From a virus, in IMG/VR virus record IMGVR_UViG_3300008117_000029, positions 1-64,000 of that record: 64,000 nucleotides of DNA, one strand, 5' to 3'. This document shows, piece after piece, positions 8 through 55,066 of this stretch. The translations under genes were made by a program, and so were the position numbers. The notes beneath the pieces were generated by a model. The model saw nothing but the letters and a program-made list of their open reading frames with translations, was not told the DNA's origin and made no database searches. Within the stretch, counting starts at the first letter, position 1. Each line of letters opens with the position of its first letter.

Positions 8-1819
8 ATGGGAGCATTATTAGAATCAGGTCTTGTTGGTAACATCGGTCTTAAGCACCTTAAAGTTATCAAAGAAGACACAATCAACAAATGGGACAAA
101 TTAGGATTCTTAGAGGGTCTTAAAGGTCACATGAGAGAAAACGTAGCTCAACTTTATGAAAACCAAGCTTCTCACTTAATCAACGAAGCTTCATCTACAT
201 CTGATACAGGTGCATTTGAAACTGTTGTATTTCCAATCGTGAGAAGAGTGTTCTCTAAGTTGTTGGCTAACGATATCGTTTCAGTACAAGCAATGAACTT
301 ACCAATCGGTAAATTGTTCTACTTTGTACCAAACATTCAGAGCTATGACCCAGCAGCACCTGCAGGTCTTAATCAACACTATTCACCATACGGTGCACCA
401 GATGGTCCAACATCTCCAAATGCAGGATACAACTATAACAATGGTAGAGACCTTTATGATAGATTTTATGAGGGTAATGAACCAGCGTTAGACCCACCAG
501 GTTTATTCGATTATTCTAAGGGTTCTTTCACTTCTGTAACATCTGCAATAACTTCAGTTGTAACAGCTCAGTGGAACAACACAACTTTGAATCTTGAACC
601 AGCGGCATACGCAACAGATAACTATAGAAAAGTATTAGTTATCATGTCAGGTTTTGCATCTGACGGAGCAGGTAAATTAATCGGTCCTGATGGTAACCCA
701 ATCGACACAGAATCATTCTTGTCTGATTTGACTATCTACGGTGTATCTGCTAACCCAACAACAGCGGGTGGTGGTCCTTACCTTTTCAGAGTAGTAACTC
801 AAAGATATGGTAAAGGTATCGTTCAATACGGTAACAACAACGCTACTTTAGATTTCCCAGGTTCATTAACTGATGGTGGTCAGTATGACAACATCTGTGA
901 TGTAAATGGTGATATCTATCTTGAAATCGACCTTCAAGTTCCAGTATGTATTACATGTACAGGTTCTATGGACGGTTACACAGGTTCTACATTCTCTTCA
1001 ACAACAGCTGCAAACTCAGCGTTCTCAGCTACTTACAGATTGTATAAGAACTTAGAATTTGAAGATAAAATTGGTGAGGTTTCATTTGACCTTATGTCAG
1101 TAACTGTTTCTGTTACAGAAAGAAAGTTAAGAGCACAATGGTCACCTGAAATGGCACAAGACGTTGCAGCATTCCACAACATTGACGCTGAAGCTGAATT
1201 GACAGCTTTATTGTCTGAGCAGGTTGCGGCTGAAATCGATAGAGAAATCTTGAGAGACCTTAGAAAAGGTGCAGCATGGAACTTGAGATGGGATTACAAC
1301 GGTTGGAAGAGACTCGGTGGTGGAACTGGCGCAGTTTCTTACACTCAGAAAGACTGGAACCAAACGTTGATTACTGCAATCAATCAATTGTCAGCTCAAA
1401 TTCACAAATCAACTTTAAGAGGCGGTGCTAACTGGATTGTTGTATCTTCTGAAATCTCTGCGATTTTTGATGATTTAGAATATTTCCACGTTTCAAACGC
1501 AGCTCCTGAGCAAGACCAATACAACATGGGTATTGAAAGAGTAGGAACTCTAGCTGGTAGATACCAAGTTTATAGAGACCCTTACTTCCCACCAAACCAA
1601 GTGTTAATCGGTCACAAAGGAACTTCGCTTCTTGATACAGGTTACATTTACGCACCATATGTACCTTTACAACTTACTCCAACAATGTATAACCCATTCA
1701 ACTTCACACCAATCAAAGGTATCATGACTAGATACGCTAAGAAAATGGTGAACAACAGATTCTACGGTAGAATCACAGTTGATGGTGTTAGAACATTCGA
1801 TTTGAAAGAGTTGAGATAA
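8..1819 (+). CDS. Major capsid protein, T4 gp23-like
   Basis: Forms the hexameric shell of the head. The 603-residue protein has the gp23 pattern: an N-terminal pro-region of about 60 residues followed by the shell domain. Residues 26-53 (NKW...GLK...LYENQ) resemble the T4 gp23 pro-region (NKWKPLLEGEG...FENQ), and residues 57-61 read LINE|A, a good match to the T4 prohead protease consensus (L/I)xE|(A/G/S). Mature shell sequence would start near A61. The reading frame is open to the left edge of the window, so an upstream start cannot be excluded. A strong terminator follows directly. Family assignment is confident; the cleavage site is inferred from the motif. Confidence 0.9.
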   Translation: MGALLESGLVGNIGLKHLKVIKEDTINKWDKLGFLEGLKGHMRENVAQLYENQASHLINEASSTSDTGAFETVVFPIVRRVFSKLLANDIVSVQAMNLPIGKLFYFVPNIQSYDPAAPAGLNQHYSPYGAPDGPTSPNAGYNYNNGRDLYDRFYEGNEPALDPPGLFDYSKGSFTSVTSAITSVVTAQWNNTTLNLEPAAYATDNYRKVLVIMSGFASDGAGKLIGPDGNPIDTESFLSDLTIYGVSANPTTAGGGPYLFRVVTQRYGKGIVQYGNNNATLDFPGSLTDGGQYDNICDVNGDIYLEIDLQVPVCITCTGSMDGYTGSTFSSTTAANSAFSATYRLYKNLEFEDKIGEVSFDLMSVTVSVTERKLRAQWSPEMAQDVAAFHNIDAEAELTALLSEQVAAEIDREILRDLRKGAAWNLRWDYNGWKRLGGGTGAVSYTQKDWNQTLITAINQLSAQIHKSTLRGGANWIVVSSEISAIFDDLEYFHVSNAAPEQDQYNMGIERVGTLAGRYQVYRDPYFPPNQVLIGHKGTSLLDTGYIYAPYVPLQLTPTMYNPFNFTPIKGIMTRYAKKMVNNRFYGRITVDGVRTFDLKELR

Positions 1820-1840
1820 TATGGTCTAACCAAAATATAA

Positions 1841-1867
1841 AAGGGTCCTTCGGGACCCTTTTTTTTT
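1841..1867 (+). terminator. Rho-independent terminator after the capsid gene
   Basis: A perfect 8-bp stem, AAGGGTCC / GGACCCTT, closes a TTCG tetraloop and is followed by seven more T. It starts 21 nt after the capsid stop codon and should end the capsid transcript. Confidence 0.95.
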
Positions 1868-1874
1868 ATTATGA

Positions 1875-1881
1875 TATTTAT
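1875..1881 (+). promoter_or_regulatory. TATTTAT box upstream of the tag protein gene
   Basis: TATTTAT lies 4 nt before the ATG at 1886. It is one of a set of such boxes found on the coding strand ahead of genes in this window. The spacing is so short that a transcript from here would be leaderless or nearly so. Confidence 0.35.
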
Positions 1882-1885
1882 TTAT

Positions 1886-2452
1886 ATGACCAAGAAAATA
1901 ATAAGATTAACGGAATCGGAATTTGTGGAAATTGTTAATAGAGTAATTAATGAACAACAGCAAAACTATGATTTTATTTTTTCAAGAAACACATCCTTAA
2001 CGGAACCTACCAAGGCGGAGGAAATATATTTGGTTAAAAATGGAGATACCTATGATGTTTTTGCGAAAAGACCTAAAAGTAACATCATTGAGAAAACTGA
2101 ATTTAGTTTACCGAAACTTTCTGAGTTATCGCTAAGGTGGAATGGTTCCACATTCGAAAATAATGAGACAACCGAAACCGCGAATATGATTGCCTCTTTG
2201 ATTAAAACTAACTTCGAAAGGAGTCAGGGTAATTGGGTTGTCTATACAAAAGAAAATGGTTTACCTGCTATCGGAAAATTATCTTTGGGTCCTGTGTATG
2301 ATTTTGATATTTTAGACAAATACAAAAAAAATAGAAAGAAACTTAAGACTGGAGAATCCTACACCCCAAATGATTATTTCATTGTAAAACAAAACAAGGG
2401 TCGTTCTTTAGAAGTTAAAGACGTGGAAGAAGCAAAACCCTACGAAGTTTAA
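1886..2452 (+). CDS. Putative internal head protein with N-terminal targeting tag
   Basis: A 188-residue protein of unknown fold. The ATG at 1886 is preferred over one at 1871, because it places the tag MTKKIIRLTES at the very N-terminus. The tag continues to VINE at residue 23. A very similar tag (KLTESD...LVNKVLNE) begins the gene at 4882, and xNE endings also occur in the capsid protein and at residue 8 of the gene at 3084. Both LTE|S and INE|Q resemble prohead protease sites, so the protein may be packaged in the head and trimmed. The rest is basic, with no recognised domain. Its 3' end overlaps the convergent gene by 4 nt. Confidence 0.6.
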   Translation: MTKKIIRLTESEFVEIVNRVINEQQQNYDFIFSRNTSLTEPTKAEEIYLVKNGDTYDVFAKRPKSNIIEKTEFSLPKLSELSLRWNGSTFENNETTETANMIASLIKTNFERSQGNWVVYTKENGLPAIGKLSLGPVYDFDILDKYKKNRKKLKTGESYTPNDYFIVKQNKGRSLEVKDVEEAKPYEV

Positions 2453-2838
2453 TAATATTGTTGCACCGTTATTTTTGAACCATTAGTATCCCTATTAACA
2501 AAAACCATGTATTTTGGTTCCATCAGTGTTGCATTACGAAATAGTGTTTCAATTAAATAGTTTGTATAAGTTTGTGTTCTAGAATCCTTGAAAAGGTAAT
2601 CACTTTTAACTACAGCTTTTATATTACAGTTCAATAAAATTGGTGAATCATAAATTTCATCAACTCCTTTGATTGAATCAAGTTTAACATTTAGAGAATC
2701 CAAACATTCATTTAGTAAGATTTTTTCTGATTGTGATAAAAATTGATAACAATCTTTCGGATTTTTAAATCCGAGGTTTTGTCCGAAAGTGGAAAAAACA
2801 GATATAACAAACAAGATAAATAAATAATATTTTTTCAT
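2449..2838 (-). CDS. Small secreted or periplasmic protein
   Basis: A 129-residue protein. Starting at the ATG at 2838 gives MKKYYLFILFVISVF followed by STFGQ, a classic signal peptide of the style seen in Flavobacteriia, where the mature protein often begins at or near Q. A longer reading from 2913 would bury this signal inside the protein and is rejected. The mature part (about 105 residues) contains two Cys (in LLNECLDS and LLNCNIK) that could form a disulfide in the periplasm. The function is unknown; a host-envelope role such as superinfection exclusion is possible but has no direct support. It is convergent with the upstream plus-strand gene. Confidence 0.6.
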   Translation of the reverse strand: MKKYYLFILFVISVFSTFGQNLGFKNPKDCYQFLSQSEKILLNECLDSLNVKLDSIKGVDEIYDSPILLNCNIKAVVKSDYLFKDSRTQTYTNYLIETLFRNATLMEPKYMVFVNRDTNGSKITVQQYY

Positions 2839-2857
2839 ATCACACAAAATTAATCGA

Positions 2858-3055
2858 TTATTTTTTATCCACCAATTTTTTTTTACAATATGGACTATTG
2901 TAACCGAATACAATACATCTCAATGTGTCAACTTCTTGTCTGAGAGGTTCTAAATAGTCACCAAAAAAAGGTTTATGTCCTTTAGAGATTTCTGAGGTAA
3001 TGTGATATTCAATTTCTATAATTCGAGAAATTAATTGATTCTTGTTATCAAACAT
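2858..3055 (-). CDS. Hypothetical protein, 65 residues
   Basis: A short protein, MFDNKNQLISRIIEIEYHIT at the N-terminus, predicted helical, with two Cys in its C-terminal third (LRCIVFG and YCKKK). It lies just upstream of the secreted-protein gene on the same strand, 19 nt away, and is divergent from the DUF5872-like gene at 3084. No family is recognised. Confidence that it is coding rests on its position and on the lack of any competing gene. Confidence 0.45.
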   Translation of the reverse strand: MFDNKNQLISRIIEIEYHITSEISKGHKPFFGDYLEPLRQEVDTLRCIVFGYNSPYCKKKLVDKK

Positions 3056-3064
3056 TTTACAGGA

Positions 3065-3072
3065 TATTTATA
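3065..3072 (+). promoter_or_regulatory. TATTTATA box upstream of the DUF5872-like gene
   Basis: TATTTATA sits 11 nt before the ATG at 3084 on the coding strand and matches the recurrent candidate late-promoter motif of this phage. Confidence 0.4.
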
Positions 3073-3083
3073 TTAAGAAATAT

Positions 3084-3977
3084 ATGAAAAAAAGATTCAT
3101 TAATGAAGCCACTGGTTCAGGTAGTTCAGGTAGAATGAAAATACCATTAGTTCTTGCACCCCAAATATGGGAAAAAGAGCCCTTGGAACCTTTCACGAAA
3201 CCAGTATCGAACTTTGTTAGTGCGGTGAATGCTTACGATAGTTATGATGGTGAAATGGAAAGGGACCAAACGTTAATAAGAAAAAACGAAACGAAGGCAA
3301 TAAAAAGAGCTAAAAAAGCAAAAGAAATGTTTTCACAAAGCGATGATGACGGAAATCCAATAAATGGGTATTCACCCATGGGAAGTGATGCCCTTGGAAC
3401 ACCCAAAGAAGTAAAAAGAATTGCACATATACCAAAAACTGAATATGAACCAGTTTTAAAAGAGGATTTAGCGGTATGGTTTGGGACAAAAAAGAAACCA
3501 AAAGGTAGTAAACAACCCAAAGGACCTTGGGTAAATATATGTAGAAAAAAAGAAGGTGGGGGACATCCTCCGTGTGGAAGACCCGAGGCAGATAGTAAGG
3601 GATATCCAAAATGTAGAGCGGCAGGTGTTGCTTCAAAAATGAGTGACTCTCAAAAAAAGAATGCATGTGCTCAAAAAAGGAAAGCTGAGAAAAAAGACCC
3701 TAAAATGGGAACAGGTAACAAACCAACAATGACTTCATATAAACCAAAAAATGAATCTTTGAGGGGATTAATTAAGAGGGTTTTAAAAGAAGAATATAGT
3801 CCCAATTTGTTATATCCTGTTGAACAGGTTTACCTAATGACAAGTAAAGCCCCATATGAACTGAGAAAACTTGTAAAAAATCTAAAACCAATAGATTGTG
3901 TAAACAATAAAGGTGAAAAGAAAAGTTGTTTCAGAATACCTGAGGTATTATACGTATATTTTAGTGGGAGATACTAA
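3084..3977 (+). CDS. DUF5872-like basic protein, putative internal head protein
   Basis: A 297-residue, Lys-rich protein. The start at 3084 (MKKRFINEATG) is chosen over 3042 because the TATTTATA box lies between them and because FINE|A at residues 5-9 repeats the capsid INE|A site. Residues near 135-205 (GPWVNICRKK..., HPPCGR, YPKCRAAGVA, KKNACAQKRKAEKKD) match the small Cys/Lys-rich domain I know as DUF5872, found in phages and large DNA viruses. A second tag-like stretch, ESLRGLIKRVLKEEYS, occurs at about residue 225. A basic packaged DNA-binding protein is plausible. The last 4 nt overlap the convergent gene. Confidence 0.6.
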   Translation: MKKRFINEATGSGSSGRMKIPLVLAPQIWEKEPLEPFTKPVSNFVSAVNAYDSYDGEMERDQTLIRKNETKAIKRAKKAKEMFSQSDDDGNPINGYSPMGSDALGTPKEVKRIAHIPKTEYEPVLKEDLAVWFGTKKKPKGSKQPKGPWVNICRKKEGGGHPPCGRPEADSKGYPKCRAAGVASKMSDSQKKNACAQKRKAEKKDPKMGTGNKPTMTSYKPKNESLRGLIKRVLKEEYSPNLLYPVEQVYLMTSKAPYELRKLVKNLKPIDCVNNKGEKKSCFRIPEVLYVYFSGRY

Positions 3978-4384
3978 TCAAGTTTTTTTAAAATTTCCTC
4001 TAAAGAATGATTGATATTATTATTGATTTCAATCTCAAGTTTCATTCTTTCATCATCCAATTTCTTGTCAAATTTTTCGACTAACTCTACGTAAAGACTT
4101 GTGTCTGAGATATACACGGAATAACTGTATATATGATTTATTAGTTTTACACTATGGTCATGTAAAACAATAAACATATCCTTGGACTCGTTTTTTATAA
4201 ATCTTTTATTAGATAATGGGGCTAAAGTTAATTTTGAATCTGAGTCGTCAAGGACCTTTCTACATATTTCGTAGGTGATTCTTTCGTCAGCCGGCAACGG
4301 TTTTTTGGGGTCGAACTTTTCCTTGAGTGCTAAAAAAACCTTATATAATATATTCGGGATGAAACCAACAACTTTGTTATCCAT
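3974..4384 (-). CDS. Hypothetical protein, 136 residues
   Basis: A soluble, charged protein, mostly helical in appearance, with no signal peptide or membrane segment. It ends in a Glu/Lys-rich helix (NNINHSLEEILKKLD). No family is recognised. It sits between two putative internal head proteins, convergent with one (4-nt overlap) and 27 nt downstream of the other, which suggests the same transcription unit as the gene at 4882. Confidence 0.55.
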   Translation of the reverse strand: MDNKVVGFIPNILYKVFLALKEKFDPKKPLPADERITYEICRKVLDDSDSKLTLAPLSNKRFIKNESKDMFIVLHDHSVKLINHIYSYSVYISDTSLYVELVEKFDKKLDDERMKLEIEINNNINHSLEEILKKLD

Positions 4385-4411
4385 TAATCAAAGATAAAAA
4401 TAATAATCAAA

Positions 4412-4882
4412 TTAACAATATGCACCTGAACATTGTTTTTTTCCATCTAAACCTGGCATTTTTCCTTTACAAACCTGAACGGCATATCCATTTGCATAAG
4501 CTGATGGGTAAACTTTGAATTTACTCTTAGCCGCTGCCTTACCTCTTGCACAAAGTTTAGTTCCTGTTTTTTTTCTACCTTCACTCAAATCTTCGAAATC
4601 TAAATAATCTCCCATTTTAGATTTTTCATTCATGAAAAAATCAAAAACTTGGTCCATGTTGGTTTTAGCCTCAGTAACGTGGTCATCGGCCCAGTCGTGA
4701 CCGTTTTGTAAAATTTCATCTATCATCTGTGGGTCAAACTCCAACAACATTTTACATTGTCTCATAATCTGTTTGAGGTTAGAAAAAAACATGTAATTTT
4801 CATGCTCTTGGTATGATTCATTGAGAACTTTGTTAACCAACTTGGTTATATCTGATTCGGTTAATTTTACAACTTTAGCCAT
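4412..4882 (-). CDS. Putative internal head protein with LTES tag
   Basis: A 156-residue protein starting MAKVVKLTESDITKLVNKVL and then NE|S at residues 21-23, the closest relative of the tag on the gene at 1886. The C-terminal 55 residues form a small basic Cys-bearing module (LCARGKAAAKSKFKVYPSAY, then VQVCKGK and CSGAYC) that I recall from other environmental phage proteins with the KVYPSAYANGYA motif. The tag carries LTE|S and LNE|S, both fitting a prohead protease site, so head packaging is inferred. It overlaps the upstream virion gene by 8 nt. Confidence 0.6.
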   Translation of the reverse strand: MAKVVKLTESDITKLVNKVLNESYQEHENYMFFSNLKQIMRQCKMLLEFDPQMIDEILQNGHDWADDHVTEAKTNMDQVFDFFMNEKSKMGDYLDFEDLSEGRKKTGTKLCARGKAAAKSKFKVYPSAYANGYAVQVCKGKMPGLDGKKQCSGAYC

Positions 4883-44409: not shown

Positions 44410-45948
44410 TTATTCTATTTCGTGTAGTAGTGAACTAACGTTGAAGACATATTGGTTTTTATCACTTATAGGGTCGTTTTTGAATATAAGTATCTTATTT
44501 GTTTTAGGATTAATAAAAATATACCAATCGACTTCGTAATGCTTAACATTTCCTGTATCCAAAAGTTTAACTCTGTCCTCGATTATTGAAACATTAGAGA
44601 ATGGTTTAACCTGTGCAGAAAACTTTTTTCCATCTAAAATCACATTTACATCAATACCTTTGAAGGCGTCTTGTTTTCCACCATGTGAACCAATCTTTTC
44701 AATTTTAGCATTACCATCAAAATAGTCTTCTATTTTTTTAATTGCGTTGTCTTCAGACTTTTGACCCCTATCCCAAAGTTTTTTAAGGACTTTGATTATA
44801 TTGATAAAGTCTTCGTTATTCTCTGTAAAGATTTCGTTTCTGAAGTGGTCCAATGCTGAAATAAATCTAGTTGTTTCCTTTAGAGTTCTTTTTTCTTTTT
44901 TTGAAAAATCAAACTTCTTTTCTGACCTTCCAATTAATTCAATCTGTTTGTTTACTGCTTTTACCAATAAACAAAATGTATTGAAATTTGTATTAAGGTT
45001 ATTGAGTATAGACCTACCCTCGGGTGATTCTACACCATAAAATCCTGACATCTCTTCAGTATTACCCTCAACCCAAAAATGTGAAAATACTTTTTTTAGA
45101 ACGTAGGATACTCCCTCCTGATATCTTTTTTTGATTGCGTAATTATTAATCAAGTCTCTATAGAACAATACTTCTTTTGGATTACAGAATTGTGGTTCTT
45201 TTGATTCAGTAATTATTCCTTGAAATTTGTTCGACTCTAGTAGTTTTGTTTCAACTTTCATTTCATAAAGTTTCTGAACAAAATCCCAATTGACCACCTT
45301 CCAAAAATTTGAAATGTATTCGTCTCTCTTATTTCTGTATTTCAAATAGTAGGCGTGTTCCCAAAGGTCCAAACCTAATAGAGGGAAACCTCCACCTTCG
45401 ATAACATTCATAAGTGGATTGTCTTGATTTGGTGTCGACATTATTTTCAAAGTATTTTTTGAGGTTAAAATTAACCATACCCAACCTGAGCCAAATCTAT
45501 CCTTTGCAACAGTTTCAAATTTCTTTTTGAATAGATTGAAACTACCGTATTCTTTGGTAATTTTTTTATACAATTCCCCTGTTAATTTTTTTGGTGTTGG
45601 AGACAACATATTCCAAAAAAGTGCGTGATTGAATGCTCCTCCAGCGTTGTTCCTTACTACTTGGTCGTATCGACTAATGTTTTTGACAATTTTTTCTAAG
45701 TCTAAATCTCCATGTTTTTTCTTTGACAGGGCGGCATTTAATTTATCTACATATCCCTTATAGTGTTTGTTGTAGTGGAAATTCATCGTTTCTGCGTCGA
45801 TGAATCCTTTGAGGGCTGAATAAGAATAGGGTAGTTTTTCTATTCCAATTTTTTTCATTTCTGTAATCAACAATTGTTTTTCTGTTTCGATATGGTTTTC
45901 GGTAATTTGTTTTTCAATTTGTTGAATTCTTTCTTCTATTTTTTTCAT
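44410..45948 (-). CDS. Fe/Mn superoxide dismutase fused to an unknown C-terminal domain
   Basis: A 512-residue protein. After a 35-residue coiled leader, residues 38-235 form a complete Fe/Mn superoxide dismutase: LPYSYSALKGFIDAETMNFH, NNAGGAFNHALFW, GSGWVWL and LGLDLWEHAYY. The four metal ligands align with E. coli SodA as H58, H108, D194 and H198. Residues 240-512 are a separate helical then alpha/beta region with no family I recognise. It ends in DWYIFINPKTNKILIFKND, which has the look of a nuclease-like or restriction-fold strand set. Bacterial enzymes are about 200 residues, so the fusion is unusual. It may be a virion protein, since neck-like genes flank it. Confidence 0.85.
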   Translation of the reverse strand: MKKIEERIQQIEKQITENHIETEKQLLITEMKKIGIEKLPYSYSALKGFIDAETMNFHYNKHYKGYVDKLNAALSKKKHGDLDLEKIVKNISRYDQVVRNNAGGAFNHALFWNMLSPTPKKLTGELYKKITKEYGSFNLFKKKFETVAKDRFGSGWVWLILTSKNTLKIMSTPNQDNPLMNVIEGGGFPLLGLDLWEHAYYLKYRNKRDEYISNFWKVVNWDFVQKLYEMKVETKLLESNKFQGIITESKEPQFCNPKEVLFYRDLINNYAIKKRYQEGVSYVLKKVFSHFWVEGNTEEMSGFYGVESPEGRSILNNLNTNFNTFCLLVKAVNKQIELIGRSEKKFDFSKKEKRTLKETTRFISALDHFRNEIFTENNEDFINIIKVLKKLWDRGQKSEDNAIKKIEDYFDGNAKIEKIGSHGGKQDAFKGIDVNVILDGKKFSAQVKPFSNVSIIEDRVKLLDTGNVKHYEVDWYIFINPKTNKILIFKNDPISDKNQYVFNVSSLLHEIE

Positions 45949-48954: not shown

Positions 48955-49647
48955 ATGAGATTTATTTTAAAAGAATCACAATTGGGTTTTTTATTAGAAC
49001 AAATATCCTATGACCCAAATGTTGAAATCATACAAAAGTATCTGATAAAAAAGGGGTATGATTTGGGTAAGTATGGTCCAAACAAAGATGGAGTGGATGG
49101 TAAGTTAGGACCTTTGACAAGAGGTGCGATGGAACAAGAGTTTGGTTTGAAAATTGTGAGAAAAGGTTCCTCATCACAAAAAACATCTGGTGAGTATGAT
49201 GCAATTTTAGTTGGGGGGTTAGATAATAGGTCTGGTGACTTAAATATAGATTCACAAGTAAGTTTATTGAAACAGGGGATTGGAACTGAAAAGAATGTTA
49301 AAGGTTTTAGGTTTAACACACCATCCTCTACAATTATAGATTTTATCAATAAAAACCCAGGAATCCCGATTTATCTTTTCAGTGCGGGATGCAGGAAATC
49401 TAATGAGATTTCAAATGTCTTGGGTCAAAATAAAAATAACTTGTTCATCATTGAGCCATATGCTGCTGGAAGTGAAACGAAAAATAATGTAAGAAATGCT
49501 GTGAACAACGGAGTTCCTGCTTCAAATGTTTTTGTTGGAAACTCAGTCGGGAGAGGACAAGGGATTGTGATTGGGGCGAGTTCATCCAAGTCAGACTCTC
49601 ATTGGAATGCACTTAAAACTGTGGGTTCAATGACTAAAAATAATTAA
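48955..49647 (+). CDS. Peptidoglycan-binding protein with unknown C-terminal domain
   Basis: A 230-residue protein. After a tag-like start (MRFILKESQLGFLLEQI, with LKE|S as a possible protease site), residues 20-65 match a PG_binding_1 domain: VEIIQKYLIKKGYDLGKYGP and DGVDGKLGPLTRGAMEQEFG. Residues 75-230 are an alpha/beta domain (YDAILVGGLDN, IPIYLFSAGCR, NLFIIEPYAAGS) without a muramidase or amidase signature I recognise. It may help penetrate the cell wall during infection or lysis. It lies 2 nt after the neck-like gene. Confidence 0.6.
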   Translation: MRFILKESQLGFLLEQISYDPNVEIIQKYLIKKGYDLGKYGPNKDGVDGKLGPLTRGAMEQEFGLKIVRKGSSSQKTSGEYDAILVGGLDNRSGDLNIDSQVSLLKQGIGTEKNVKGFRFNTPSSTIIDFINKNPGIPIYLFSAGCRKSNEISNVLGQNKNNLFIIEPYAAGSETKNNVRNAVNNGVPASNVFVGNSVGRGQGIVIGASSSKSDSHWNALKTVGSMTKNN

Positions 49648-54235: not shown

Positions 54236-55066
54236 ATGAGAAAAGAGATTACAGAAGGTTTCAAAGACGAGAAAACCCCGGATTTAAAATATTACGCTTT
54301 CGACTGGGATGACAATATTGTGCACATGCCGACAAAGATAATTCTGAAAGATTCAGACGGAGAAGAGGTAGGTATGTCAACCGAAGATTTTGCAGAATAC
54401 CGACACATTGTAGGAAAAGAAGATTTTGAATATAACGGACATAAGATTGTTGGGTTCGGTGACAATCCGTTTAGAAACTTTCGAACTGAAGGAGACAAAG
54501 ACTTTTTGATTGATTCTATGCAAGCAAAGAAGGGACCAGCTTTTGATGACTTTAGAGAAGCAATAAATAATGGTTCAATATTTGCAATAATCACTGCAAG
54601 GGGTCATAATCCCGAAACCCTGAAACAATCCGTCTACAATTATATTGTAAATGATTTCGGCGGGATATCCAAAGATGAACTAATCAAAAATTTAAAAAAA
54701 TATAGGAACTTTACAGGTGAAGAAGATTTATCTGATAAAGAACTTATCGACCTTTATTTGGATTTAAACAAATACCATCCCGTTTCTTTTGGAGATGAGT
54801 CGGGTGCCACAAATCCCGAGGAGGCGAAGGTTAGAGCGATGAATGATTTTGTGGACTACATTAAGAATATGGCAGCATTACTTAATAAAAGAGCATGGTT
54901 AAAAAACGACATAGGAAACAAATTTACACCATCTAAACCATCAATTGGTTTTTCAGACGATGACCCAAGAAATGTAGAAGTAATGAGAAAAGCCTTTAAA
55001 GATAAACCAGATAATTTAGTTAAAACATATTCTACTGCTGGAGGAACTAAGAAGGAAGTGCAATAA
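54236..55066 (+). CDS. HAD-superfamily phosphatase-like protein
   Basis: A 276-residue protein. Motif I is YYAFDWDDNI (DxDD at the catalytic position), motif II is FAIITARGHNPETL, and motif IV is IGFSDDDPRNVEVM. A cap of about 90 residues lies between motifs I and II and another between II and IV. A Lys-rich segment around KRAWLKND may supply motif III. The start, MRKEITEGFKD, contains ITE|G, which fits the prohead protease site, so packaging is possible. It sits between sheath and tube genes, an odd place for an enzyme. Confidence 0.65.
   Translation: MRKEITEGFKDEKTPDLKYYAFDWDDNIVHMPTKIILKDSDGEEVGMSTEDFAEYRHIVGKEDFEYNGHKIVGFGDNPFRNFRTEGDKDFLIDSMQAKKGPAFDDFREAINNGSIFAIITARGHNPETLKQSVYNYIVNDFGGISKDELIKNLKKYRNFTGEEDLSDKELIDLYLDLNKYHPVSFGDESGATNPEEAKVRAMNDFVDYIKNMAALLNKRAWLKNDIGNKFTPSKPSIGFSDDDPRNVEVMRKAFKDKPDNLVKTYSTAGGTKKEVQ

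Follow-up and report, generated by a model that had tools for sequence, protein, structure and literature searches.

Putative capsid-targeting propeptides of several classes in a T4-type phage of about 321 kb

Bases 1-64,000 of a 137,794-base IMG/VR virus record (IMGVR_UViG_3300008117_000029, here G000), which form the window of this study, open with the gene for a gp23-like major capsid protein (MCP) and code for several further proteins that start with a short peptide ending in glutamate, called a tag below. These N-termini are probably capsid-targeting propeptides that would be cut by gp21, the prohead protease known from phage T4. The whole is best read as a known kind of system, here greatly expanded, divided into several classes and used in polyproteins. 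It was already published that capsid-targeting sequences (CTS) possibly let T4-like phages load varied proteins (PMC9026906); extent, several classes and polyprotein use are new here, and our literature searches brought up no description of tags like these. Genes of the window are named by coordinate, e.g., 3084 for 3084-3977.

The source of the window is a T4-type phage of about 321 kb. A record of 321,283 bases (G001) contains gene 4412 at 100% amino-acid identity within a neighbourhood shared with the window, so the G000 record is a fragment of such a phage. The nearest named isolates by MCP are Microcystis phage Mel-JY01 and Flavobacterium phage immuto (about 42% identity).

N-terminal tags shared by unrelated proteins

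The first 30 residues of every G001 protein were compared with those of every other, with no motif chosen, leaving out pairs with similar bodies and keeping scores of at least 45. This gave 97 non-paralogous pairs from 43 of the 334 proteins, while 20 draws of internal segments gave 0-10 pairs (mean about 3.3) and residues 32-61 gave 4. A short N-terminal peptide is thus common to unrelated bodies (97 pairs against about 3). About 35 of the 43 proteins are visibly tagged and a few are ordinary, e.g., two Rossmann-type enzymes. Applied to T4, the same test ranks KTYQEFIAEA, the CTS of IPII and IPIII, second; the other top entries are homing-endonuclease pairs.

The tags are 7-23 residues long. 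By sequence, four classes or more can be told apart: A (MSKIVRLTESDLIRLVKKVIKEQ), B (MNLNENISRVKELMG), C (MKYIITESQLxxLLxEQ) and D (MRDLIKKLLRE), with a further pair, MNRS[YF]SKIRHIQE, outside them. A tag hidden Markov model (HMM) scores 30-53 bits on clearly tagged proteins and 9 on the best reversed protein, and L/I-x-E[AGSQ] is 4.5-fold enriched at residues 4-12 of G001 proteins. A tblastn search with the bare tag gave no match. The original prediction had named six N-termini (at 8, 1886, 3084, 4882, 48955 and 54236) as members of a tag family. All six are present in the sequence, and the family is real, as sharing exceeds the internal controls; it is also more widespread than noted, with most of the set outside the window.

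Predicted cleavage sites are conserved in relatives

Site conservation was followed in up to 88 relatives, the 54236 family being represented by 40 distinct N-termini. None of the sites examined in them departs from glutamate at P1. In the MCP (8-1819, plus strand), the pro-region covers residues 1-60 (8-187) and the predicted cut LINE|A, with glutamate 60 at its end, is kept in 84/84 relatives, placing I-N-E at P3-P1; the propeptide of T4 gp23 is cut at the equivalent place. Gene 3084-3977 (plus strand) starts with the propeptide MKKRFINE (3084-3107; predicted cut INE|A). Its N-terminal [ILV]xE has the glutamate in 86/86 relatives, followed mostly by A at P1'; the middle site LxE|DLAVWFG has E|D in 87/87, and the internal or C-terminal tag keeps its final glutamate in 87/87. 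The basic module 2 of this protein (DLAVWFGTKKKPKG..., 3465-3791) extends from the predicted cut LKE|D to the end of the internal tag NESLRGLIKRVLKE (3750-3791), after which a C-terminal domain follows (3792-3974).

Two of the six N-termini are of class A. The one at 1886-2452 (plus strand) has the tag MTKKIIRLTESEFVEIVNRVINE at 1886-1954, scoring 41.5 bits with the tag HMM, and a predicted cut VINE|Q. The other, a two-module protein at 4412-4882 (minus strand, start at 4882), carries the tag MAKVVKLTESDITKLVNKVLNE|S at 4882-4817 and, after a predicted LSE|G, a basic module at 4579-4415 that corresponds to phrog_27331. In the 4412 family both the end of the class A tag and the second site, [ILMV]xE|G, have the glutamate in 88/88 relatives. 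The 7-residue propeptide MRKEITE of gene 54236-55066 (54236-54256, plus strand; predicted cut ITE|G) belongs to a family where all 40 distinct sequences fit M[RK]xx[ILF]xE|GF. The protein at 48955-49647 (plus strand; MRFILKE|S), with a weak peptidoglycan-binding match, has the class C tag MRFILKESQLGFLLE at 48955-48999, and its N-terminus clusters with other G001 tags; the search for relatives found identical copies only, and its cut site is a candidate.

P3 is L or I in 97-100% of relatives at the 3084 N-terminal site, the 3084 C-terminal tag and the class A end, and less regularly (I or L) at the second 4412 site (51/88) and in the 54236 family (32/40). P2 varies at all sites save that of the MCP. 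The peptides therefore end in L/I-X-E with an invariant P1 glutamate, class B and C tags being covered only in part. L/I-X-E is the cleavage motif of T4 gp21 (PMC9026906), and the conserved sites match it, more loosely at the second 4412 site.

A gp21-type protease is encoded next to the capsid gene

An S77 (gp21-type) prohead protease is encoded in G001 at 107549-107980, just upstream of the capsid gene and outside the window (Pfam E 1.5e-22; phrog_207 E 6e-43; 32% identity to T4 gp21 over 148 amino acids). Leading up to the MCP, G001 has the gene order of T4: terminase, portal, small genes, the protease, an acidic 525-residue protein in the scaffold position, MCP. An S77 search of the G000 fragment alone gave no match because the gene lies outside the fragment. 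The protein in the scaffold position has 11 L/I-x-E sites, not above shuffled sequences. Among 22 tag-bearing IMG/VR contigs (1.91 Mb in total), S77 was found in five, gp23 in four and S78 in none; at one S77 per 320 kb about six would be predicted, so five of 22 is consistent with the protease accompanying the tags and no proof of it, the contigs being fragments.

Tags and predicted cut sites inside polyproteins

Tags are also found within fused proteins. In L126, a single open reading frame (ORF) encodes a homolog of 3084 and, behind it, one of 1886, linked by a class A tag; a tag also joins X-type bodies to a 4412 body or to a 133-residue body, and L046 has two tags. Some fusions retain ATG at the internal tag, leaving separate initiation possible there. 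Near the internal-tag start, L036 has only a TTG, at -7, and L038 has no ATG, GTG or TTG from 16 codons before it to 14 after.

In podophages the same basic modules occur as separate small genes whose start codons lie at or a few residues from the predicted cuts. Stand-alone homologs of the 4412 module are P-SCSP2 gp19, located between the scaffold and capsid genes, and HTVC023P gp51; HTVC023P gp52 is a stand-alone homolog of 3084 module 2. From their type these podophages would, to our knowledge, be expected to lack gp21, for which no search was made.

Most 3084-family proteins in L005-L164 have a tag-like helix, NESLRDLIKKVLRE, with an invariant glutamate at or near the protein end and no body behind it. 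It may be a tag placed at the C-terminus or what is left of a module since lost.

AlphaFold2 models have a mean pLDDT (predicted local distance difference test) of 48 for 4412 and 55 for 3084. The 3084 model is weak overall: a domain past the internal tag is modelled with confidence, the surroundings of the predicted cut sites with little. Structure searches with it returned nothing reliable.

Relation to known head-targeting systems

In T4, the CTS of IPI-IPIII and the gp21 propeptides of Alt and gp23 are likewise short N-terminal peptides on unrelated proteins, end in L/I-X-E and are served by an S77 protease. T4 Alt starts with MELITE, which may be compared to MRKEITE of the 54236 family. 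T4 has only a handful of tagged proteins, compared to about 35 in at least four classes here, where tags and x-E sites are found within polyproteins and at the C-terminal end as well. In phiKZ and SPN3US many head-packaged proteins are cut after glutamate by the prohead protease (PMC9026906, PMC5694885), which is more distant. Scanning 20 tagged proteins with phiKZ_IP (PF12699) gave no match above the cut-off; only G001 257699 scored, 18.5 bits against a cut-off of 27.

The T4-like cyanophages S-CREM2 and S-SCSM1 have unrelated virion proteins with a common motif at the N-terminus that ends in xE. This tag, F..F[LI]xE, resembles the T4 CTS and is unlike the classes of this phage; a T4-CTS-like pattern fits both T4 and cyanophage tags. 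A nucleotidyltransferase with the N-terminal motif occurs in S-CREM2, S-SCSM1, S-CRM01, P-SSM2, S-SRM01 and Sf-CH8. The published S-CREM2 virion mass spectrometry reports ORF detection without N-termini, and the paper mentions neither targeting, N-termini nor cleavage (PMC10665884). Among the S-CREM2 ORFs, a T4-CTS-like N-terminus was present in 6/50 detected and 1/160 undetected ones (6/7 carriers against 44/203 others detected; p = 8e-4, an optimistic value because the pattern was picked with these data in view). Of the six detected carriers, two are hypothetical proteins; the others are annotated as a SAM hydrolase, a kinase, a nucleotidyltransferase and a Cas9-like nuclease. In both S-CREM2 and S-SCSM1, annotated virion proteins have a WPSAYASG module resembling the one in 4412, with xE|G upstream (ISE|G, MTE|G). 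In the isolate immuto, the best further genome match of two tag groups is to small head-cluster genes (prohead core) flanking gp21, ranking 1/206 and 1/205.

The original prediction had proposed both targeting into the prohead and proteolysis. The S77 protease, the invariant L/I-x-E sites, the module boundaries and fusions and the cyanophage virion data support this, and for the present phage we infer both steps.

Observations at odds with capsid targeting

Several observations weigh against this reading. P1' of class A is mostly Q rather than A, G or S, and the second 4412 site frequently has M or V at P3. Classes A-D are unlike the T4 CTS (MKTYQEFIAE); as a CTS is defined by function, such dissimilarity limits the claim of common descent, not that of mechanism. 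In a search like that in immuto, the head-core N-termini of G001 did not rank high against its own tags. The way the S-CREM2 pattern was selected counts on this side too, and S-SCSM1 has two carriers, one of which is an annotated virion protein (the nucleotidyltransferase), which is not significant (p = 0.32). Profile support for homology between 4412 and the S-CREM2 virion protein gp160 is modest, covering 21 columns. The profile comparison of 3084 with gp160 was weak (probability 6%).

Other explanations of the shared N-termini

The tag could instead be a docking helix for the tail or baseplate, a replication or lysis complex or a membrane, the terminal L/I-x-E lying uncut within the helix. 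Class A is predicted to be helical (with low confidence), several tagged proteins match cell-wall enzymes and could belong to the tail or to lysis, and the first glutamate of the class A tag, near-invariant (87/88) and not always in an L/I-x-E context, may belong to a docking helix. An uncut helix is hard to reconcile with a last glutamate that is invariant while the following residues vary, and x-E also precedes module boundaries without a helix tag (LKE|D, LSE|G, ITE|G). The link to core genes in immuto and to virion proteins in S-CREM2 argues against docking outside the head. We regard this explanation as unlikely.

Descent from an old paralogous family, with diverged bodies and a conserved N-terminus, would agree with 30 of the 35 tagged G001 genes lying within 158-243 kb, as tandem duplicates would. 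It is very improbable, as the folds that the bodies match differ (C39 peptidase, glucosaminidase, L,D-transpeptidase), pairs with similar bodies had been excluded from the count, the same body has different N-termini in relatives and, in fusions, the tag links different bodies. Translation or transcription signals, conserved in the DNA where genes start, would account for where the tags are located, and were rejected as scarcely credible since synonymous positions under LTESDL vary freely and tags also occur mid-protein and C-terminally.

Predicted route and cargo of the tagged proteins

If the tags are capsid-targeting propeptides, each would dock its protein on the core of the prohead while the head is being assembled; gp21 would then cut behind the last glutamate of the tag as well as between modules. 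The cargo so released would remain with the DNA and pass into the next host cell on ejection. In 3084 and 4412 the basic modules would lie on the packaged DNA; enzymes among the cargo, cell-wall-active proteins included, would have their role early in infection. It is possible, though we would not count on it, that the tag classes are distinct addresses (docking partners or core layers), that the beads of polyproteins are each tagged and every bead is cut by gp21, and that about one tenth of the genes of the 321-kb genome are injected cargo readable from N-termini. The proteins injected with DNA are unknown for nearly all uncultivated phages. Should the tags prove to be a loading code that can be read, one could predict from sequence which proteins (anti-defence, cell-wall and host-takeover) are injected by many T4-like viruses from metagenomes.

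Some tagged G001 proteins match glucosaminidase, peptidoglycan-binding, C39 peptidase, L,D-transpeptidase or DHH/TseH-like domains; most are unmatched. Judging by these matches, several look like cell-wall enzymes. They had been described beforehand as small basic proteins, which is wrong for most: module 2 of 3084 has a net charge of +20 (109 residues) and that of 4412 of +12 (55 residues), 54236 is acidic, and 4/35 tagged proteins are strongly basic. Since only these two modules among those described are strongly basic, the description fits parts of two genes. The proposed likeness to DUF5872 did not hold for 3084 or 4412, neither of which has a Pfam match at E<=0.01.

The G001 protein at 255156-257312 (L182 8156-10312; 718 residues) starts with MKNLITETGL and has a DHH-like N-terminal and a C-terminal domain like the type VI secretion effector TseH. 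Two other long G001 proteins, at 129781-131262 and 263024-264784, have the short L/I-x-E starts MKFISILLKEG and MKILELILEN; both match phrog_17056 and phrog_28193, PHROGs of unknown function.

Capsid-arm copies and a neighbouring gene

A copy of the first 25 or so residues of the phage's own mature capsid protein was seen in T4 61.1 (L190 18966-19130, minus strand), S-CREM2 gp160 (L196 30342-31235) and S-SCSM1 93082-93306, with scores of 69, 95 and 83 against shuffled-arm maxima of 46, 47 and 52. The latter two are virion proteins by annotation or report, and T4 61.1 begins with the CTS-like MKTFKEFIKE. None was seen in G001 or immuto, and the idea that the ATGSGSSG start of 3084 copies the capsid N-arm is unsupported in G001. 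A 401-residue protein at G000 136443-137648 (L004 16444-17649) has two KEATGSGS[SV]G stretches like the mature 3084 start and a tag-like NESVKEAIKSISKK close to its C-terminus.

At 44410-45948 of the window, adjoining a head-tail adaptor-like gene, a protein with both Fe/Mn superoxide dismutase domains is encoded (PF02777, E 1.4e-39; PF00081, E 1e-22).

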